Source: Actinomycetes bacterium (lineage in GTDB: Bacteria > Actinomycetota > Acidimicrobiia > Acidimicrobiales > Bog-793). From it: a stretch of 64,000 bases of DNA. Below the pieces are notes generated by a model. The model ran no database searches, was not told where the DNA came from, and saw nothing but the letters and a program-made list of their open reading frames with translations. The position numbers and the translations under genes are program-made. The stretch covers positions 62,001 to 126,000 of the forward strand of contig JAJZBI010000005.1 in assembly GCA_021798985.1 (NCBI GenBank). The letters are read 5' to 3'. Below, piece by piece: positions 20,967 to 34,507 of this stretch. The number at the start of each line of letters is the position of its first letter. Positions within the stretch are counted from its first letter, which is position 1.

Positions 20967-21934
20967 GTGGTGCAGGCCCCAGCTGAACTCATAACGCCGC
21001 CGCGACGCCAGCGCGCCGCGGGGCGCCTGCTCGTCCCAAAGCGCAGTGACGAGCGCCGCCAAGGGCGGGCGGGCGCGCTGATGACGGTCCCGTTCCTTGC
21101 CCTGTTCGCCCTGTTCTTTGCCGGGCCGCTCATCTACTCGATCGTGCTCAGCCTGCGCTCGCCCCTGACCGGGGGCTTCGCGGGCCTGCTCAACTACCGC
21201 ACGGTCATCGGCAACGCCGAGTTCTGGAGCGGCGTGCAGCGCATGGCCTACTTCGGTGCGGTGCAGGTGAGCGTGATGATCGGCCTCGCGATCTTGCTGG
21301 CGATGTTCCTCGACAGCCCGTACTGCAAGGGCAAGCGGGTCTTCGCGCTCATCTACTTCCTGCCCTATGCGGTGCCCGGGGTGATCGCCGCCATCATGTG
21401 GGGTTTTTTGCTCGAGCCAGACCTGAACGGGGCGCTGTCGATCCCCTCCAAGCTCGGACTCACCTCGGGCCCGATCAGCCCGCTCGACTACCGGCTGGCG
21501 CTGTACGCCATCATGTTGATCGTCACGTGGGAGTTCACGGGCTACAACATGACGATCCTGTTGACCAGCCTCACGAACGTGCCGCGCCAGGCGCTCGAGG
21601 CGGCCAAGATCGACGGGGCGAGCGAGCTGTCGATCGCCTGGCGCATCAAGCTGCCGCTGATCCGCCGCACGGTGCTCTTCATCGTGATCCTCTCGATCAT
21701 CGGCACGCTGCAGTTGTTCAACGAGCCGGTGATCTTGAACGACATCGCCTCGATCGGCAGCAGCTACACGCCGAACCAGATCATCTACAACACGGCGTTC
21801 TCCTTCGGCAACGAACAGCTCGCCGCGGCGCAGTCGGTCGTGCTGGCGGCGATCACCATCGTCGCCACGACGGCGTTCTTCGGCCTCGTGCGCCGGCGGG
21901 TCATGCCGCGCAGCGAGAACCGGGCGGTGGCCTG

Positions 21935-21935
<1 letters not shown>
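20967..21935 (+). CDS. ABC sugar transporter permease (CebF/MalF type)
   Basis: 322 residues from GTG 20967, with GGAG 5 bp upstream. Six membrane helices follow a basic N-terminus (MTVPFLALFALFFAGPLIYSIVLSL is the first). The EAA coupling loop is RQALEAAKIDGASELSIAWRIKLPLIRR near residues 208-234. It pairs with the next gene, whose ATG overlaps this stop. No ATPase gene is present in the operon, so the pair probably uses a shared MsiK-like ATPase encoded elsewhere. Confidence 0.93.
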
Positions 21936-25976
<4,041 letters not shown>

Positions 25977-26040
25977 CCAGCGCGTCGCACGCGCGCGCAC
26001 GTACGTGGGCGCGGCCTGGCGCCTGTGCGACGCTGTCGCC

Positions 26041-26595
26041 GTGGAGCTGGATCGCCTGGAGGGCGCGCTGGTCGCAGCCCGCCAGGGCGACGAGGCGGCG
26101 ATCGGGAAGCTGTTCGCGGCGTTCCAGCCGCTCCTGCTGCGCTTCTTGCGCCGCCAGGCGCCCCGGGTCGCCGAGGATCTCGCCGCAGAGACCTGGCTCG
26201 CGCTGGCGCGCCAGCTCCCGAGTGTTGTGGGCCAGGTGGCCGATTTCCGCGCGCTGCTCTTCACGGTCGCGCGGCGCCGGGTCGTCGATCACTACCGCGC
26301 CGAGGGGCGCCGACCGGCGTCTCGTCCACTCGAGGCGAGCGACGACCGATCCGGAGGTGACGACCCGAGCGAGACGGTCGTCGATCAGCTCTCCGCCCAA
26401 CAAGCGATCGACCAGCTCGTCGGCGGGCTCCCTCCAGCCCAGGCCGAGGTCGTCTTGTTGCGGGTGGTGGCAGGGCTGAGCGTCGAGGAGACGGCCGCGG
26501 TGATCGAGCGGAGCCCGGGTGCGGTCCGCGTGCTCCAGCACCGCGCGCTCCGCCGCCTCGCCGGCCAGCTCGCCGCCGACGGTGTAACGCCGTGA
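26041..26595 (+). CDS. ECF-type RNA polymerase sigma factor
   Basis: 184 residues from GTG 26041; GTG 26005 would add 12 residues and neither has a strong ribosome site. Region 2 is short: LEGALVAARQGDEAAIGKLFAAFQPLLLRFLRRQAPRVAEDLAAETWLALAR, then FRALLFTVARRRVVDHYRAEGRR. Region 4 is GLPPAQAEVVLLRVVAGLSVEETAAVIERSPGAVRVLQHRALRRL. The layout (regions 2 and 4 only) is that of an extracytoplasmic-function sigma factor. It overlaps the next gene (GTGA), a membrane-anchored protein that is the likely anti-sigma factor. Confidence 0.92.
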   Translation: MELDRLEGALVAARQGDEAAIGKLFAAFQPLLLRFLRRQAPRVAEDLAAETWLALARQLPSVVGQVADFRALLFTVARRRVVDHYRAEGRRPASRPLEASDDRSGGDDPSETVVDQLSAQQAIDQLVGGLPPAQAEVVLLRVVAGLSVEETAAVIERSPGAVRVLQHRALRRLAGQLAADGVTP

Positions 26596-28001
26596 GCGGC
26601 CCGGACGATGAATCCCTCGACATGGCCCGCTCGAGTGACGCCGACCGCCTCTTCGACGGGCTCGTTCCTCCCGAGGACGCACCGGCCGAGCTCCGCCATG
26701 TCGCGGCGCTGATCGAGGCCGCCCGCGGCGCCGCCGCACCGTCCGAGCTCGCCGGCCACGAGCTCGTCGCCGAGATCGCGATGGCGGTGCGCGCCGCGCC
26801 GTCAGCGCCGAGCGACACCGGCCGGCGCCGGACCCTTCGGGTGCACTCGGTCAAGGTGGTGGCGCTCGCCGCGACCGCGGTCGTGGTGGTGGGTGGCGTC
26901 GCCGCCGCCGCCACCGGCGCGCTTCCGTCCGGCATCCAGCGGGCGGTCGCCCGCGGCCTCGCCCACGTCGGGATCTCGGTCCCGGTTCCGGCCGTGACCC
27001 ACCAGCCACCGGCCATGGTCAGCCCGGCGACCACCAGCACGACGACGACCACCACCCCGGCCACGACCACGACGCCGGCCGTGGCCGCACTCCCGGCCAC
27101 GACGAGGTTCCCCTCCTCGCCGCAGCGGTCCTCGTCCCTGCCGTCCTCGTCCGTGCGCTTGCCTTCGGGGTCCTCCTCGTACCAGCCGTCCTCGGCATCT
27201 GGTGCCGCCAGGGTGGCGACGAGGGTGCACCCGGTGGCCTGCGGCGGGGCCGCCTCCTCGCCGCAGGGTGCTGGGGCCTTCCTGCTCGACCCGGTGCTCG
27301 GCGCGAGGGCGCGGCACGTGGCGCACTGTGGCGGCGAAACGGCCGCGTCGACCCAGCCACGCGACGCCGCCAACGATCAGCGCGCTCGGCGGCGCCGATC
27401 GAGCGTTCCTGCCACCGCGCTGCGAAGCGGCACGGCGCCGCCGGAGGCGACCAGCCGCCGGTCTGAGACGCCGCGGCCGTCCGAGCGCGCGCTGCGTCGC
27501 GGCGAGCGGCCGCACCGCGACGGTGCGCCCAACGGCCAGCCGAGCAGCACGCGGCCCGCCGCCGACGCGTCGGGCCGTGTGACGCGACCTCGCCGCCATG
27601 CTGCCCACCGCGACGCGCCGCCGGCCTCTGAGCCGCAGACCAGCCCGTCGGCGACGACCGCGCCCGCACCGGTGAGCTCGCCGCGACCCCGGCGCGCGAG
27701 TGACGGTCGAGGCGGGCACCGAGACCCTGGCGAACGCTCCGGCCATCGGCATCGGCGGACCACGAGGGCCAGCGCCCTGCCGAGCTCGCTGCCCTTGCCC
27801 GCACCGGCGCTCTCGGGCACCGCCACCACCACGACGACCGCATCTGCCTCGCCGACCCCGCTCAGCGCGACGGCGACGACCGACGCGCCCCCTGGATCAT
27901 CGGGGCACGCGGCCGGCGACGGCACTTCTCCGGCTGGAAAGGAGGGATCGCCGCACCCGCCGAATGACCACCAGCAGTCCAATCCGGCGCGAACCCACTA
28001 A
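26592..28001 (+). CDS. Putative membrane-anchored anti-sigma factor with long low-complexity tail
   Basis: 469 residues from GTG 26592, overlapping the ECF sigma stop (GTGA). The first ~85 residues are cytoplasmic and acidic (SSDADRLFDGLVPPEDAPAE), with a helical stretch that could hold the sigma factor. One membrane helix follows (VVALAATAVVVVGGVAAAATG, about residues 91-111). The remaining ~355 residues would be outside the cell. They are low-complexity: Thr/Pro runs near residues 140-160, an Arg/His-rich middle and another Thr/Ser/Pro section at the end. No zinc-finger HxxxCxxC motif is present. The function is inferred from position only. Frame loss in the middle was considered, but both ends share the same Thr/Pro composition. 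Confidence 0.65.
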   Translation: MSGPDDESLDMARSSDADRLFDGLVPPEDAPAELRHVAALIEAARGAAAPSELAGHELVAEIAMAVRAAPSAPSDTGRRRTLRVHSVKVVALAATAVVVVGGVAAAATGALPSGIQRAVARGLAHVGISVPVPAVTHQPPAMVSPATTSTTTTTTPATTTTPAVAALPATTRFPSSPQRSSSLPSSSVRLPSGSSSYQPSSASGAARVATRVHPVACGGAASSPQGAGAFLLDPVLGARARHVAHCGGETAASTQPRDAANDQRARRRRSSVPATALRSGTAPPEATSRRSETPRPSERALRRGERPHRDGAPNGQPSSTRPAADASGRVTRPRRHAAHRDAPPASEPQTSPSATTAPAPVSSPRPRRASDGRGGHRDPGERSGHRHRRTTRASALPSSLPLPAPALSGTATTTTTASASPTPLSATATTDAPPGSSGHAAGDGTSPAGKEGSPHPPNDHQQSNPARTH

Positions 28002-28037
28002 CCACTCGATCCCGGCCAGGAGAGGAAGGAAACCACC

Positions 28038-29159
28038 ATGGCGAGATTCATCGCCGCGCTCATCGCGACCTTGATGTTGCTCGGCACCCCCGCGGCATAC
28101 GCGGCACAGCCGGCCCACCCAGCCCACCCGGGCGCGCCCTTCGCGCACCGCGGTGACCGGGACCATGCCGATGCCACCTACGCCCTGCGGGGAACGCTCA
28201 GCAACTACGTCGCGCCGAGCGCGACGGCAAATGGCAGCATCACCGTCACGGTCTTCGCACCCCAGGGCGAGGACCAGCCGCTGACGGGCACCGTGCTCAC
28301 CGGCACGGCGCTCACCTTCGCCGTGACCTCGGCAACCCGCATCGTCTTGCATGGGGCGTCGGCCATCACCAACGGCGACCGCGGGACCGTCCTCGTGCGC
28401 GCCCCGAAGGGCTCGAGTGTGACGACGCTCGAGGCGACCCCGGCACTGGCCGTCATCGACCAGGCCCAAGGCGGCGCGGACCTCGGGGACCACGGTGGCC
28501 GCAAAGGACATGCCGATGCCACCTATGTGCTGCGCGGCACGCTCAGCAACTACATCGCGCCGAGCGCGACGGCAAATGGCAGCATCACCGTGACCCTGCT
28601 GCCGCCACCCCTTTGGGACCTGAGCCTCACCGGCACCGCGCTCACGGGCACGACGCTCACCGTTGCCATCACCACCCAGACCCGTGTCGTGCTGCACGGG
28701 GCGTCGGCCATCGCCAACGGCGACCGCGGGACCGTCCTCGTACGCGCCCCGAAGGGCTCGAGTGTGACGACGCTCGAGGCGACCCCGGCGCTCGCGGTCA
28801 TCGACCAGGCTGATGCCAGCGGAGATCGCGGCGGGCACGAGCAGCACGTCGACAAGAGCTACGTGATCCGCGGCACGCTCAGCAACTACATCGCGCCGAG
28901 CGCGACGGCGAACGGCAGCATCACCGTCACCCTGGCACCGCCTCGCTTTTGGGGCGTGCCGCTCACCGGAACGGCGGTCACCGGCACCTCGCTCACCTTC
29001 AGCATCGCCACGACGACCCGCATCGTGTTGCACGGTGCGGCGAGCATCGCAAATGGCGATCCCGGGCTCGTCAAGGTGCGCGCGCCTCGCAACTCGAGCC
29101 TCTCGGTGATCGAGGCGACCCCGGCGAGCGCAGTCATCGACCGGGCGGGGAGCCGCTAG
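28038..29159 (+). CDS. Secreted protein with three tandem ~100-residue beta-rich repeats
   Basis: 373 residues. GGAGAGGAAGGA precedes ATG 28038. The signal peptide is MARFIAALIATLMLLGTPAA with cleavage near AYA-AQ. The mature part is three repeats (residues about 44-143, 159-258 and 271-370). Each starts [AV]D-x-[TS]-Y-x-[LI]-RGTLSNY and runs through APSATANGSITVTL, LTGTAxTGTxLT, R[IV]VLHGA and GD to ATPAxAVID. Short Asp/Gly/His-rich linkers join them. The pattern resembles the small OB/beta-barrel domains of the DUF5666 kind (G-x-[IV]-x-x-x-[AS]-x-x-x-[IV]-T-V), but this is a guess from pattern. It directly follows the ECF sigma and putative anti-sigma genes and may be their main product or sensor. 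Confidence 0.85.
   Translation: MARFIAALIATLMLLGTPAAYAAQPAHPAHPGAPFAHRGDRDHADATYALRGTLSNYVAPSATANGSITVTVFAPQGEDQPLTGTVLTGTALTFAVTSATRIVLHGASAITNGDRGTVLVRAPKGSSVTTLEATPALAVIDQAQGGADLGDHGGRKGHADATYVLRGTLSNYIAPSATANGSITVTLLPPPLWDLSLTGTALTGTTLTVAITTQTRVVLHGASAIANGDRGTVLVRAPKGSSVTTLEATPALAVIDQADASGDRGGHEQHVDKSYVIRGTLSNYIAPSATANGSITVTLAPPRFWGVPLTGTAVTGTSLTFSIATTTRIVLHGAASIANGDPGLVKVRAPRNSSLSVIEATPASAVIDRAGSR
28167..29147 (+). repeat. Three in-frame 300-bp coding repeats
   Basis: Copies lie at 28167-28466, 28512-28811 and 28848-29147. Copies 1 and 2 are nearly identical at DNA level in their last 110 bases, for example CGACCGCGGGACCGTCCTCG in both, including synonymous positions. Copy 3 shares the protein pattern but has many synonymous and some amino-acid changes. 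Confidence 0.9.
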
Positions 29160-29176
29160 CACCTCGCGGTGACCTC

Positions 29177-29220
29177 GAGCGGCTGGCTCCCGCAGGCAAA
29201 CGCCCCGGAGCCAGCCGCTC
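29177..29220 (+). terminator. Terminator hairpin after the triple-repeat gene
   Basis: A 14-bp perfect stem (29177-29190 with 29207-29220) encloses a 16-nt loop, 17 bp after the stop codon. No T-tract follows. Confidence 0.65.
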
Positions 29221-29649
29221 TCGGCCCGTCCTTGCTGCGCGGCCAGCAGCAGTCGACACCGCCAGGGGACGCCGCGCTGCCACGCTCATCTGGGTCTCGA
29301 TCGGCGTCTGCTTCATGCCGCTCACCGGCGCGTCCGGCAGTGTGGCCCTTGCGGCATCGTGCTCGAGGCGGCGCGACTTGCCGACGCGGCGGCGTCGCCT
29401 TGGGAAGACGAATCTCGCTGCACCGCTTCGGACGACTCGCGCTGGCTCGTCCTCGAGGAAGCTGAGCTCACCCCGCCGCCCATCGAACCAATCTCGCACC
29501 GACGTATCTCACCGCAATGCAAGTTTCACGAGATCGCGCGGCACCGCCAGCCGCGGGAGCGCTGAGCTTGCCGCCGGCGTCGTCGGTCGCGTGCGGTTTG
29601 GCGCTCGACACCTCAGTGATGCGCCAAGGGGCACGTGGTCGCCGTCGTC
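29221..29649. other. Intergenic stretch without a recognised gene
   Basis: Convergent gap between the triple-repeat protein and the enolase-superfamily gene. Base composition is slightly less GC-rich around 29340-29560. Reading frames there give Arg/Ser-rich peptides with no ribosome site or family pattern. No RNA gene was seen. Confidence 0.5.
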
Positions 29650-30828
29650 CTACCAGTCCGAGATCGACCCGTCGTCGCGGTACAGCACGTGGGGCTGCTG
29701 GGGCTCGTAGGGGAGCTCGGCGGCCGCCTCCTCGTTCAGCTCAACCCCAAGGCCTGGACGGTTGCCCGAGTACAGGTTGCCGCCCTCGAGGCGCAGGTCG
29801 GTGGTGACGATGCCCTCCAGCACTCCGGGGCGCCAAGTGAGCTCTTGGACGGCGAACAGCGGCGTGGAGAGGTCGAAGTGCACACAGGCGGCCGTGGACA
29901 CCGGCCCGAGCGGGTTGTGGGGGACCTGCTCGACGTAGTGCGTCTCGCACCACGCCGCCACCTTGCGGCTCTCGCTCAGGCCTCCGCAGATGCACAGATC
30001 GACGCGGCAGTAGTCGAGCAGGTCGCGCTCGATCAGCTCGCGCCACTCCCACTTGCTCGAGAGCTGCTCGCCCGTCGCGATCGGCACCGAGACCTGGGCG
30101 CGCAACAGCGCGAACTCGCTCGGGTTTTCGGCGCGGATGGGGTCTTCGATGAAGAACGGCCGCATCGGCTCGAGGGCCCGCGCCAGCTGGATGGCATAGG
30201 TCGGCGTGGTGCGCTGGTGGAAGTCGACGCAGATCTCGATCTCGTCTCCGAGTGCCGAGCGCAGCTCGGAGAAGGCGTCGACCGTCCACGACAGGGCGCG
30301 CGCCTGCTCGTGGCGGCGCTCGCGGTGGCGCACTGGCCCCTCGCTCACGTGGAAGCGGACGAAGCGCCAGCCTTCGGCGACCCGGGCCTTCGCGTACTCG
30401 ACCATTTCGGGGATCCCCGTGCCGTCCTTGGCGGCGTCGGCGCCTTGTTGGACGTGGCAGTAGCAGCGGACGTAGTCGCGGGTCTTTCCGCCCAAGAGCT
30501 GATAGACCGGCACGCCGAGCACCTTGCCGCGAAGGTCCCACAGGGCGATGTCGATGGCGGCGACCACGGCGCCGTGCACGTGGCCCCCCCGGAAGAACTG
30601 CCCGCGCCACAACAGCTGCCAGAGGTGCTCGATCCGGGTGGGGTCCTCGCCGACAAGGAGTGGGCGGTAGACGTCGGCGAGTCCCGAGAGCGCCGGCTCT
30701 TTCCAGGTGATGCCGGCCTCGCCGAGCCCGGTGACCCCCTCGTCGGTGAAGATCTTGACGAAGAAGTAGTTGCGGTCCGGACGATCCGGGTCGTGGACGG
30801 CGAAGGTCTTCAGATCTGAGATGCGCAT
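29650..30828 (-). CDS. Enolase-superfamily sugar-acid dehydratase (galactonate dehydratase-like)
   Basis: 392 residues, with AGGAG upstream of ATG 30828. The mandelate racemase/muconate lactonizing fold is clear: capping domain (FFVKIFTDEGVTGLGEAGITWKE), then the barrel. Metal ligands and catalytic residues can be read as CVDFHQR (Asp-x-His as in GalD), FIEDP and ATGEQLSS. The later HNPLGPVSTAA carries the catalytic His typical of D-galactonate/D-gluconate dehydratases. It should remove water from an aldonic acid to give a 2-keto-3-deoxy acid. The next gene upstream encodes an FAH-family enzyme that could process such products. Exact substrate is unresolved in this family without assay. Confidence 0.88.
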   Translation of the reverse strand: MRISDLKTFAVHDPDRPDRNYFFVKIFTDEGVTGLGEAGITWKEPALSGLADVYRPLLVGEDPTRIEHLWQLLWRGQFFRGGHVHGAVVAAIDIALWDLRGKVLGVPVYQLLGGKTRDYVRCYCHVQQGADAAKDGTGIPEMVEYAKARVAEGWRFVRFHVSEGPVRHRERRHEQARALSWTVDAFSELRSALGDEIEICVDFHQRTTPTYAIQLARALEPMRPFFIEDPIRAENPSEFALLRAQVSVPIATGEQLSSKWEWRELIERDLLDYCRVDLCICGGLSESRKVAAWCETHYVEQVPHNPLGPVSTAACVHFDLSTPLFAVQELTWRPGVLEGIVTTDLRLEGGNLYSGNRPGLGVELNEEAAAELPYEPQQPHVLYRDDGSISDW

Positions 30829-30915
30829 GCCCGAGGCTCCTGTGGTCGCGTGGTTCGCTGGTGGCGTGCTCCTGGGTTCGAGAGGTGCGTGGGTTCGCTC
30901 GGTCGGCTGAATCGC

Positions 30916-31782
30916 TCAGGTCGAGGCCGAAAGGCCGCGCACGACGCGGTTGGTGAGGGTGCCGAGCGCCTCGATCGTGACCTCGACCTCGTCGCCCGCC
31001 TCGAGCGTGAAGGGGGTCTCGGGCACAAGGCACGTGCCGGTCGACAGCACCGCCCCGCTCGGGAAGCGGTCGGCCCGGAAGAGGTAGCCGGCGAGCTCGT
31101 CGAGTCGGCGGTGCAGGCGCGCCGTGCTCGTCACGCCGTCGAAGACGGCCGTGTCGCCGCGGACGATCCGCAAGGCGATCGACAGCGCGTAGGGATCGGG
31201 CACCTCGAAGGCGGGCCGGATCCCTGGGCCGAGCGCGCAGCTGGCGGCGTAGACCTTGGCCTGGGGGAGGTAGAGGGGGTTCTCGCCCTCGATCGAGCGG
31301 GATGAGCAGTCGTTGCAGATGCTGTAGCCGACGATCTCACCGGCCGCGTTGCACACGATCGCCAGCTCGGGCTCGGGCACGTTCACCGGGGAGTCCTCGC
31401 GGATCCCAAGGGGGCCGTCCGGCCCGCTGACCTTCCAGGACACCGCCTTGAAGAAGAGCTCGGGGCGCTCGGCGTCATAGACGAGGCGGTAGATGTCGGC
31501 CGCGGCCTCGCTCTCTTCCATGCGGGCCTCGCGGGAGATCTCATAGGTCACCCCACTCGCCCACACCTCGGTGCGGCCGTCGATCGGAGCGAGGAGCTCG
31601 ACCTCGGCGAGCGGCACCCCGCTGGTGCGCGCGCCGTCCCTGCAGCGGGCGGCGAACTCGCTCGCGGGCAGTGCCCAAAGCGCTTCGAGGGAGGCCACGC
31701 CCTCGAGCGGGCGCACCTCGCCGTCTTCCAAGATGCCCGGGCGCGCCAACGCGCCGGCGTGTTGGTAGCGGACGAGGTGCAT
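30916..31782 (-). CDS. Fumarylacetoacetate hydrolase-family protein (2-keto-3-deoxy acid dehydratase-like)
   Basis: 288 residues, ATG 31782 with a purine-rich AAGGGG before it. The FAH domain shows the metal-binding PEPELAIV (Glu-x-Glu), GYSICNDCSSRSIEGENPLYLPQAKVYAASCALGPG, and the late GAVLSTGTCLVP loop. The ENPLYLPQAK variant resembles 2-keto-3-deoxy-arabinonate/xylonate dehydratases rather than true fumarylacetoacetases. With the enolase-superfamily dehydratase 87 bp downstream it could form a non-phosphorylated pentonate or hexonate pathway. Function beyond the family is inferred from context. Confidence 0.85.
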   Translation of the reverse strand: MHLVRYQHAGALARPGILEDGEVRPLEGVASLEALWALPASEFAARCRDGARTSGVPLAEVELLAPIDGRTEVWASGVTYEISREARMEESEAAADIYRLVYDAERPELFFKAVSWKVSGPDGPLGIREDSPVNVPEPELAIVCNAAGEIVGYSICNDCSSRSIEGENPLYLPQAKVYAASCALGPGIRPAFEVPDPYALSIALRIVRGDTAVFDGVTSTARLHRRLDELAGYLFRADRFPSGAVLSTGTCLVPETPFTLEAGDEVEVTIEALGTLTNRVVRGLSAST

Positions 31783-31825
31783 CGCTTCCCCCTTGTCGGA
31801 TTCGGTTGATCTCGGTGGTACGCGG

Positions 31826-33184
31826 CTAGATCGCAGCGGCGAGCTGGCTGCGCAAGGGCTCGCGCACGACGCAGTGCTCGAGCGCGAAGGAGTCCGCGAG
31901 CGCGTCGAGCTGCTGGTCGCTCAGCCCAGACAGCAGCGCCGCGTACTCGCCCGCGAGCGGCTGGGCGAACATGATGTGGTGCAACAAGGTGCGCACCCAG
32001 TCCGCGCGCCCCCACGGATAGGGGTCGAAGTCGGGGAACTCGGCCGCCATCAGCTCCTGCAGCGGCACGCTGACCTCGGCGGGCCCGATCCCGTCGGTGC
32101 CCCACGCGTCCGCCGCCAGCCGCTTTTTCTTCGCCACGAAGCCGTCGAAGCGCTGGCGGTAGGGCGTGGTCGGCGCGACGTAGGCGAGGCCCTGGATGCC
32201 GATGTCCTTGTAGGTCCAAAGCGACCAGCTCGCCCCGTGGCGGCGGTAGCAGTCGAGCTGATCGCCGAGCAGCTGGCTGCGCTGGGCGTCGATCGTGGGG
32301 TCGCCGGTGTAGATCGGGCCGAACTCGCCGACCCAGATCGGGGTGTTGGTGCGCCGCGCGTACTCGCTGCGCTCGAGAAACTTCTCCTCGATACTCGCCG
32401 CGTCGTGGTAGACGCCCCGGGTTGGCCCCGGATAGGGGCCGCCGTAGCCGAGGCCGGCCGGCACGTAGTCATGACAGGCGTACACGGTGTTCTCGAAGGG
32501 CTCGGTGAAGACGTCGAACTCGGTCGAGTAGGTGTTGCCGTCGAGGAACAGCAGATGGTGCGGGTCCACCGAGCGGATCGCCGCGACGAGGCGCGCGTAG
32601 TACGGACCGATCACCTCGCGAGATGGATCGGCCGGCTCGTTGATCGGGTTGTAGCCGGCGACGAAGGCCTCGTCCTTGTAGCGGTCCGCGATCGCCTCCC
32701 ACAGGTTCACCGCCCGGTCCTGGAAGTGGGGGTGGGAGAAGAGCTGGGCGAGGTGCGTGGGGTTGTCCGAGTGCCAGTGCGCGTTCTGGGCACCCGGCAG
32801 CGCGTGGAGGTCGATGACGCTGTAGATGTTGCGCTCGGCTAGGAGCGCGATGGTCCGGTCCAGGTGCGAAAAGCCGGCCTCGATCACCTGGAAGGGGTGC
32901 CGGTCGTCCTCGAGGTGGTGGTAGTTGACCGGGATGCGCACGCAGTTGAAGCCGCACGAGGCGATCAGGTCGGCGTCCGCCGCGCGGAAGAAGGCGTGGA
33001 GGAGGCGATCGAAGAAGGCCTCGGCGCGCTCGTGGCCGAGCACGGCGGCGACCTCGGCGCGCATCAGCGACTCGTTCGCCGCGTAGCCGGTGACGAAGTT
33101 CTCCATGTTCAAAAAGCCGCCGAGCGCCACGCCGCACAGGCGGATGGGCTCGCCGCTCGGGGCGATGAAGCGATCGGCGCGCAT
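31826..33184 (-). CDS. Glycoside hydrolase family 5, apparently cytoplasmic
   Basis: 452 residues. The GH5 barrel is recognisable by CGFNCVRIPVNYHHLED, the acid/base motif YNPINEPADP (near residue 180), CHDYVPAGLGYGGPYP and the nucleophile motif PIWVGEFGPIY (near residue 285). There is no signal peptide: the protein begins MRADRFIAPSGEPIRLCGVA. That suggests action on an imported oligosaccharide or glycoside rather than on cellulose outside the cell. It lies 43 bp upstream of the FAH-family gene on the same strand, so these sugar genes are probably one transcript. Aglycone or linkage specificity (cellulase, mannosidase, glucosylceramidase-like) cannot be set from sequence. Confidence 0.88.
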   Translation of the reverse strand: MRADRFIAPSGEPIRLCGVALGGFLNMENFVTGYAANESLMRAEVAAVLGHERAEAFFDRLLHAFFRAADADLIASCGFNCVRIPVNYHHLEDDRHPFQVIEAGFSHLDRTIALLAERNIYSVIDLHALPGAQNAHWHSDNPTHLAQLFSHPHFQDRAVNLWEAIADRYKDEAFVAGYNPINEPADPSREVIGPYYARLVAAIRSVDPHHLLFLDGNTYSTEFDVFTEPFENTVYACHDYVPAGLGYGGPYPGPTRGVYHDAASIEEKFLERSEYARRTNTPIWVGEFGPIYTGDPTIDAQRSQLLGDQLDCYRRHGASWSLWTYKDIGIQGLAYVAPTTPYRQRFDGFVAKKKRLAADAWGTDGIGPAEVSVPLQELMAAEFPDFDPYPWGRADWVRTLLHHIMFAQPLAGEYAALLSGLSDQQLDALADSFALEHCVVREPLRSQLAAAI

Positions 33185-33265
33185 CGACAGCAGGGAGGAA
33201 GCGATGGCCCATCTTGGCGCACCGGAGCGGCCGGCGCATCCTTCGTCAGATGGTAACGCTGCGCC

Positions 33266-34507
33266 TCAGCGCGCCGGCGAGGTGGGCGAGTAGGCGTGCT
33301 CGCCGTGCTGGGTCACATCGAGCCCTTCGAGCTCGTCATTGAGCGGCACCCGCAGCGGCAGCACGCGGTCGATGCCGCGGGCGAGCAGGTAGGTGGCCCC
33401 GAAGGCGTAGGCGGCCGAGACCACAGCGGCGAGCACCTCGAGGCCGAACAGGTGCAGCCCGCCACCGAGGAACAGGCCGCTTGCGCCTCCCGTCGCCGAG
33501 CGCTCGGCGAACAGACCGAGCAGCACCATGCCGACCAGGCCGCCAACCCCGTGGATGCCGAGCACGTCGAGGGAGTCGTCGTAGCCGAAGCGGAACTTCA
33601 GCTGCACCGCGCTCACTGACACGAAGCCGGCGATCGCCCCGATCAACAGCGCCGGCATCGGGCCGACATATCCGGCGCACGGCGTGATCGCGACCATCCC
33701 GGCGACGGCCCCCGAGGCGGCGCCCAGTCCAGTCGCGACGCCGCGCCGCACGAGCTCGAAGGCAAGCCAGCCGAGCATCCCCGTCGCCGCCGCCAACTGG
33801 GTGTTGACGAAGGCGTGCAGCGCGTCGCTGTTTAGGCCGAGGGCCGAGCCGGCGTTGAAGCCGAACCAGCCGAACCACAAGATCCCCGCCCCCAACATGG
33901 TGAGGGGGAGCGAGTGGGGCAGCATCGGGTCGCGGGGCCAGCCGTGACGGCGCCCGATGACGAGGGCGAGGGCGAGGGCGGAGAAGCCCGAGTTGATCTC
34001 GACGACCGTGCCGCCGGCGAAGTCGAGCACCCCGAGGTGGGCGAGCCAGCCGGTCGGGCTGAAGACCCAGTGGGCGAGGGGGACGTAGACCACAAAGAGC
34101 CAGGCGATGATCACCACCACGAGGGCGACGACGCGGATGCGGTCGACGACCGCCCCGGTGATGAGGGCGGCGGTGATGGCCGCGAACATCAGCTGGAAGA
34201 TCATCACCGCTTCGGGCGGCACCATCAGGTGGTGGCCGAAGCCCGGCAACGTGGCGCTCAGGTGGCCGAGGCCGAAAAAGGAGAGGTCGCCGATCAGGCC
34301 GCCGCCGGCGTCGTGGCCATAGACGAGGCTGAAGCCCAAGATCGCCCAGCAGACCGTGACGACGGCCAGCACCACCAGGCTCTGGACGATGATCGACAGC
34401 ACGCCCTTGCTGCGGACCATGCCGGCGTAGAAGAGGCCGAGGCCTGGGATCATGAAGAGCACCAGCGCGGCGCTGATCAGCACCCAGGCGGTGTCGGTCG
34501 CATGCAT
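33266..34507 (-). CDS. amt: Ammonium transporter (Amt family)
   Basis: 413 residues with about eleven membrane helices and no clear signal peptide. Amt hallmarks include the start TAWVLISAALVLFMIPGLGLFYAGMVRSK, FAGGTVVEINSGFSALALALVIG (conserved D-x-A-G-G-x-x-V-H region, here with Glu-Ile-Asn rather than His-Ile), and LDVLGIHGVGGLVGMVLLGLFAE with the second pore His. The C-terminal DELEGLDVTQHGEHAY is the GlnK-contact tail. No glnK or glnD gene follows, unlike the common amtB-glnK pair. The first twin-His position reads VEINSG, so its loss of His may change the pore chemistry. The gene is upstream of the GH5 gene on the same strand but probably independent. Confidence 0.93.
   Translation of the reverse strand: MHATDTAWVLISAALVLFMIPGLGLFYAGMVRSKGVLSIIVQSLVVLAVVTVCWAILGFSLVYGHDAGGGLIGDLSFFGLGHLSATLPGFGHHLMVPPEAVMIFQLMFAAITAALITGAVVDRIRVVALVVVIIAWLFVVYVPLAHWVFSPTGWLAHLGVLDFAGGTVVEINSGFSALALALVIGRRHGWPRDPMLPHSLPLTMLGAGILWFGWFGFNAGSALGLNSDALHAFVNTQLAAATGMLGWLAFELVRRGVATGLGAASGAVAGMVAITPCAGYVGPMPALLIGAIAGFVSVSAVQLKFRFGYDDSLDVLGIHGVGGLVGMVLLGLFAERSATGGASGLFLGGGLHLFGLEVLAAVVSAAYAFGATYLLARGIDRVLPLRVPLNDELEGLDVTQHGEHAYSPTSPAR

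Follow-up and report, generated by a model that had tools for sequence, protein, structure and literature searches.

Positions 26,041 to 29,159 of the stretch of contig JAJZBI010000005.1 analysed here (64,000 nucleotides in full, referred to as the window) carry three genes on the + strand, in the order extracytoplasmic function (ECF) sigma factor, membrane partner and secreted repeat protein. The host genome (3.76 Mb) belongs to the Actinomycetota. The trio was assigned, with a probability of roughly 0.6, to an envelope-responsive ECF sigma/anti-sigma operon. The sigma factor and the partner are ordinary members of a widespread uncharacterised family and are not peculiar to the host genome, and the secreted repeat protein is a rare local speciality that distinguishes this variant of the operon.

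Sigma/partner family across order and phylum

Homologues of the partner were collected with a profile of its N-terminal and membrane region. Of the genomes searched, 99 of 298 in the order and 41 of 396 in the phylum contained the module. The gene immediately ahead of the partner gene encoded an ECF sigma factor in 39 of the 40 loci inspected (29/30 at the level of the order, 10/10 at the level of the phylum), and the sole exception, an order-level locus, begins at a contig end. Of the 39 sigma factors placed in a tree, those linked to a partner formed one group apart from six other ECF factors of the host genome (support 96/93). The pair is not special to this genome but one copy of a family spread through the phylum.

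The zinc motif HxxxCxxC was absent from all 46 partners (window and relatives), and the assignment of the partner as a zinc-type class I anti-sigma factor was rejected on this ground. The tails of the partners are mostly long and of low complexity, with a median length of 193 residues over the family; the tail in the window (336 residues) is among the longest. The missing zinc finger, correctly recorded beforehand for the window, and the long tail are consequently a rule of the family and not the unusual combination for which they had been taken. Together, the linkage to sigma genes, the zinc-less state and the long tails support an anti-sigma factor that acts in the manner of RsdA or RsgI.

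The settings of other members were recorded as well. Most other pairs inspected are two-gene units with unrelated and often convergent neighbours. In G029 (L044:4137-8577) and G028 (L046:6588-11210) the pair is followed immediately by dnaG (primase) and the gene of a primary-type sigma factor; this setting is conserved between these two genomes, both of the same family as the window genome, and differs from that of the window. In G024 (L045:1883-4656) the genes behind the pair encode a prepilin-like protein, which has TIG and fn3 domains, and other pilin-like proteins. In G199 (L088) another secreted protein (about 340 residues) is encoded on the same strand directly downstream of the partner, possibly a parallel recruitment behind the sigma/partner pair.

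Operon layout and coding evidence

The following features were located at the level of the operon:

26041..26595, + strand: ECF sigma factor gene (GTG start, 184 residues; regions 2 and 4 only; from Pfam and TIGR02937)
26592..26595, + strand: 4 bp overlap GTGA of the sigma stop with the partner start (from the sequence; translational coupling presumed)
26592..28001, + strand: gene for a single-pass membrane protein of 469 residues, candidate anti-sigma factor (from the linkage of homologues to ECF sigma genes)
28019..28029, + strand: purine-rich putative ribosome-binding site GGAGAGGAAGG ahead of the ATG of the repeat gene (from the sequence)
28038..29159, + strand: gene for the secreted triple-repeat protein, 373 residues (open reading frame; orthologues at the corresponding position in G006, G017, and G018)

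With the 4 bp overlap and a gap of 36 bp between the partner stop and the repeat gene, the earlier description of the three genes as adjacent or overlapping holds. A start/stop overlap (ATGA or GTGA) is likewise present in G017 and G018. Third-position G+C amounted to 0.87 for the sigma gene, 0.90 for the partner N-terminus, 0.85 for the partner tail, and 0.88 for the repeat gene, and all three genes were therefore taken as coding in the frames given. The possibility that the partner tail is a wrong-frame artefact was ruled out by the high in-frame third-position G+C and by relatives with similar tails; an antisense open reading frame across the same bases has its third positions in common with the tail but resembles low-complexity noise.

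No sigma-70 promoter and no terminator were found, including between the partner and the repeat gene. The motif GGAAC-N15-19-CGT occurred 13 times (10.7 expected), none of the occurrences lying ahead of the operon genes, and the upstream regions, when compared by eye, had no motif in common. A shared promoter, by which the repeat gene would be tied to the sigma factor, was not found.

Sigma factor

The protein was classified as an ECF factor because it consists of sigma-70 regions 2 and 4 only (Sigma70_r2, 1e-10; Sigma70_r4_2, 6e-13; Pfam) and is shorter than about 200 residues; TIGR02937 (NCBIfam) exceeded its cut-off. The GTG start agrees with the homologues, and identity to the sigma factors of G017 and G018 is 57%. 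Among subfamily models, the ShbA/SigD type (NCBIfam PRK09648) was the best of its kind, at 120.2 bits and thus below its cut-off of 209, followed by the BldN-family model TIGR02952 (87 bits, below its cut-off of 206). SigD region 4 was among the Protein Data Bank (PDB) matches. Since 102 of the 157 ECF groups defined in the literature are unstudied (PMC8103513), the sigma factor could well belong to a group that has been named but not studied.

Membrane partner

The partner was divided into the following segments:

26592..26846, + strand: cytoplasmic part, residues 1–85, conserved, without Cys; presumed sigma-binding segment (from family alignments)
26853..26921, + strand: transmembrane helix, about residues 88–110, VVALAATAVVVVGGVAAAATGAL (from the hydrophobic stretch)
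26922..26984, + strand: conserved juxtamembrane segment LPSGIQRAVARGLAHVGISVP on the outer side (from a family-wide motif)
26991..27998, + strand: extracytoplasmic low-complexity basic tail of 336 residues, rich in Ala/Ser/Pro/Thr/Arg (from composition, 45 relatives, and codon-position G+C)

The AAAAT end of the transmembrane stretch is nearly invariant across the family, and the juxtamembrane segment follows the family-wide motif LPxPVQRAVAxxLxHVGI. About 355 residues lie beyond the helix, the length given in the initial annotation. The composition of the last 336 residues (A 17, S 14, P 14, T 12, and R 12%; 40 K+R vs. 19 D+E) agrees with the richness in Thr, Pro, and Arg stated there, to which Ala and Ser have to be added. 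HxxxCxxC is absent from the whole protein, and the first 100 residues are devoid of Cys.

No Pfam or NCBIfam family was obtained for the partner, and comparison of its profile with solved structures gave no similarity to a solved anti-sigma domain. The predicted model of residues 1–85 consists of three helices and is of low confidence (predicted local distance difference test, pLDDT, 55). The assignment of the partner as an RsdA homologue was rejected, as no signal appeared in the profile comparisons; a genome search with PF16751 was silent in the controls as well and is thus uninformative on RsdA homology.

The partner of the sigma factor might accordingly be something other than an anti-sigma factor, such as a co-activator or a sigma-controlled wall protein, a reading that fits the missing anti-sigma domain, the missing RsdA similarity, and the low confidence of the N-terminal model. 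It was considered improbable, because throughout the phylum the gene almost always follows the sigma gene immediately, and because the protein has a conserved cytoplasmic end and a single membrane helix, as ECF anti-sigma factors usually do.

In 28 of the 46 partners the tail carries a Cys...Cys motif (C-x-A-Y ... Y/F-C), which is degenerate or lost in the window. The segment reads GLCTAY ... GESVxxYC, with low-complexity inserts between the two halves (L063, L064, L041, L069-L087, and others). It gave no Pfam match in the members scanned and is possibly a disulphide-closed sensor domain.

Three-gene order in relatives

The trio was found on one strand in the window genome (G000) and in G006, G017, and G018, which represent three genera of one Actinomycetota family. 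The neighbourhoods are of three unlike kinds (window; G006; G017/G018). Because the trio recurs in three genera and in different neighbourhoods, the operon was taken to be real. The four trio sigma factors formed one group on the sigma tree (support 87/84; 88% of bootstrap trees). In G023, a genome of the same genus as the host, the contig starts inside the repeat gene, so that the upstream side is outside the sequence. A scan for the repeat pattern yielded two relatives, DS4.bin24 (contig JAJYQK010000069) and MAS3.bin140 (contig JAJZLV010000106), each labelled Actinomycetes bacterium and of the same family as the host genome. Altogether, the repeat protein is present in 10 of 35 genomes of the family.

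A single origin of the trio, as indicated by the one group on the sigma tree, is also what would be expected if the repeat gene were a passenger, that is, the gene of an unrelated secreted protein that landed behind the pair in a single ancestral event and was then retained; the prevalence of two-gene units among the other pairs and the occurrence of the repeat elsewhere without the pair point in the same direction. The gene order has, however, been held down to about 50% protein identity and in three neighbourhoods, over which an idle link would rarely survive, and DUF5666 domains are fused to the partner in the related G033 line (see below). The passenger explanation was therefore judged to be unlikely.

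In the window, the operon is flanked by genes for LacZ and a sugar permease upstream and for an enolase-superfamily enzyme downstream; the downstream flank is kept in G023. The wider region (21929-34507) is sugar-related, with an ABC (ATP-binding cassette) sugar permease, a LacZ-type beta-galactosidase, the enolase-superfamily enzyme, an FAA hydrolase, and a GH5 cellulase; an ammonium transporter comes last.

Secreted repeat protein and its probable relation to DUF5666

The repeat protein was divided as follows:

28038..28103, + strand: signal peptide MARFIAALIATLMLLGTPAAYA, with putative cleavage after AYA (from the sequence, by eye)
28173..28466, + strand: repeat unit 1, 98 residues, probably DUF5666-like
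28518..28811, + strand: repeat unit 2, 98 residues, probably DUF5666-like
28854..29147, + strand: repeat unit 3, 98 residues, probably DUF5666-like (the homologue from G023 matches PF18914 at 25.5 bits)

The three ungapped units begin at residues 46, 161, and 273 and are joined by Gly/His/Asp-rich linkers; identity to unit 1 is 82% for unit 2 and 64% for unit 3. No other such protein is encoded in the host genome. The repeat profile was matched in 9 of the 298 order genomes, of which eight belong to the family of the host, and in 2 of the 396 phylum genomes, namely the host genome and the distant G618. A triple repeat of roughly 100 residues, as described initially, is thus present, and its beta-rich character rests on a low-confidence predicted model of the unit (seven strands, pLDDT 55). 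When this model was compared with the PDB, the best Z score was 3.8, and many of the rows were single-stranded-DNA-binding proteins of the oligonucleotide/oligosaccharide-binding (OB) type, which gives only a hint of a leaning towards an OB barrel. Searches for solved relatives of the protein returned chance matches only.

A Pfam search with the window protein itself gave nothing above threshold, DUF5666 (PF18914) included, and the unit 3 homologue from G023 scored 25.5 bits (E 1.7e-5; cut-off 27 bits). Profile–profile comparison of the repeat with DUF5666 gave E 1.9e-4 (probability 47%) and, at another alignment setting, E 0.0017 with a score of 18, as compared with at most 8.9 for 30 column-shuffled controls. 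Scores of single sequences were weak: in a ranking of 3011 real and shuffled sequences, 4 of the 11 units reached the top 12. From these profile comparisons, the window repeats are probably distantly akin to DUF5666. Of the profile and structure searches initially proposed for the repeat, the former thus returned a modest kinship to DUF5666 and the latter a weak model with OB-like matches at Z < 4.

DUF5666 domains were also encountered in a partner itself. Two such domains form part of the tail of the G033 partner (L042:2414-3925; hhalign E 3.5e-8, probability 93.5). On the same strand, about 1 kb away, a further gene (L042:1-1338) encodes five DUF5666 units in a protein of its own, whose membrane segment is similar; fused and separate units are 53% identical in the best segment. 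The G033 sigma factor shares an 11-row subclade with the trio sigma factors (support 93/57, weak). Direct profile comparison of the fused G033 repeats with the window repeats failed (E 0.28), and the bridge between them therefore runs only via DUF5666. This one fusion is suggestive of secreted repeats and partner tail acting together.

The DUF5666 proteins inspected in the order are mostly secreted or single-pass and lie away from sigma genes. This agrees with a role of the repeat protein as a mere output of the sigma factor, namely a structural protein, secreted or associated with the wall, that is produced under stress and whose gene is third because the operon regulates itself. Such an output role is further supported by the position of the gene, which is co-oriented with the partner gene, begins 36 bp past it and has a ribosome-binding site of its own (no terminator was found in between), and by the stand-alone copies of the repeat without a sigma pair, which suit an effector. 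The DUF5666 fusion in the G033 partner tail is left unexplained by it, and the output role was rated as a strong contender with a little less than an even chance.

Assessment and proposed mechanism

Several results weigh against the assignment as an envelope-responsive sigma/anti-sigma operon. The partner gave no match to any Pfam anti-sigma domain, RsdA_SigD_bd included, and RsdA similarity was not detected (hhalign of the partner profile with the RsdA segment 3vep_X: probability 0.2, E 0.31). Searches for an ECF-type promoter upstream of the operon and of the repeat gene found none. Sigma factors and partners had correlated distances (Spearman 0.60, 33 pairs; none of 2000 permutations reached this value), but shared ancestry confounds this mirror-tree support. 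The DUF5666 link of the window repeats is modest, and the fusion in the tail is known from one genome (G033). In the stretches examined, the repeat gene stands alone, with neither a related sigma gene nor a related partner gene, in G014, G016, G019, G020, and G021, and G618 (L145:1489-1941) carries a lone single-unit secreted repeat protein with neither a sigma gene nor a partner gene in the 3.3 kb examined; from these six genomes it follows that the repeat gene is not strictly dependent on the pair. What stands of the envelope-sensing system proposed in the initial annotation is a sigma/anti-sigma-like operon with an envelope-side component, as supported by linkage, distance correlation, and the precedent of disordered tails (PMC11175481).

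For the sigma/anti-sigma operon, the following course is proposed, in which sigma binding and partner cleavage are extrapolated from established ECF biology. The cytoplasmic end of the partner (ca. 85 residues) would keep the sigma factor inactive at the membrane, where the partner would be anchored by its helix. The basic Ser/Thr/Pro-rich tail of 336 residues would thread into the wall and report its state. Under stress, the partner would be cleaved stepwise, by an outer protease first and then by one of the M50 proteases, which are encoded in the host genome, and the sigma factor would be freed. For RsdA, a disordered outer domain of ca. 160 residues is the proposed sensor of wall defects, and cleavage by MarP, Rip1, and ClpXP is described; the membrane-bound anti-sigma factor RsgI senses the wall with its disordered outer region (PMC11175481).

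The secreted repeat protein would act in the same compartment as the tail. A part in sensing, as a detached sensor or ligand module binding the tail or the wall, is slightly favoured over pure output, because DUF5666 domains are built into the partner tail of G033, a relative of the same subclade. In a stricter form, which appears rather doubtful, the sensing domain of the anti-sigma tail would have been moved into the separate secreted protein; binding of the latter to the disordered tail or to the wall would then decide on cleavage of the anti-sigma factor, and the G033 lineage would have retained the domain in the tail in addition to a separate repeat protein nearby.

In Actinomycetota, the sigma/partner family is common (a third of the order genomes searched), yet its partner has no Pfam or NCBIfam family, and a single working example would therefore open the way to many genomes. 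The presence of DUF5666-type repeats both fused and separate suggests a testable role for a poorly understood domain, namely participation in envelope sensing through an anti-sigma tail.

Comparison with known systems

RsdA is devoid of a zinc motif, as is the window partner. The SigD–RsdA pair of Mycobacterium and Corynebacterium is also alike in its combination of a sigma factor with a single-pass partner bearing a long low-complexity outer tail (PMC11175481). It differs in that the cytoplasmic end of the window partner is without detectable RsdA similarity, in that the window sigma factor scores below the ShbA/SigD subfamily cut-off, and in the extra third gene of the window. The SigI–RsgI pair of Bacillus differs from that of the window in that SigI lies outside the ECF factors and RsgI carries domains of its own. 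The membrane anti-sigma factor RsgI, with its disordered outer wall-sensing part (PMC11175481), is likened to the window partner by description. RsbN, the membrane-anchored anti-sigma factor of the actinobacterial ECF sigma factor BldN (PMC8103513), has a class III anti-sigma domain; the pair resembles that of the window in membrane anchoring and in its actinobacterial ECF sigma factor, TIGR02952 being the second-best model, whereas the window sigma factor is far below the BldN cut-off and the partner profile matches no solved anti-sigma domain. DUF5666 proteins, finally, share with the window protein the arrangement of repeated domains in secreted or membrane proteins, the window unit being longer (about 98 vs. 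about 70 residues), with the extra residues in its first half.

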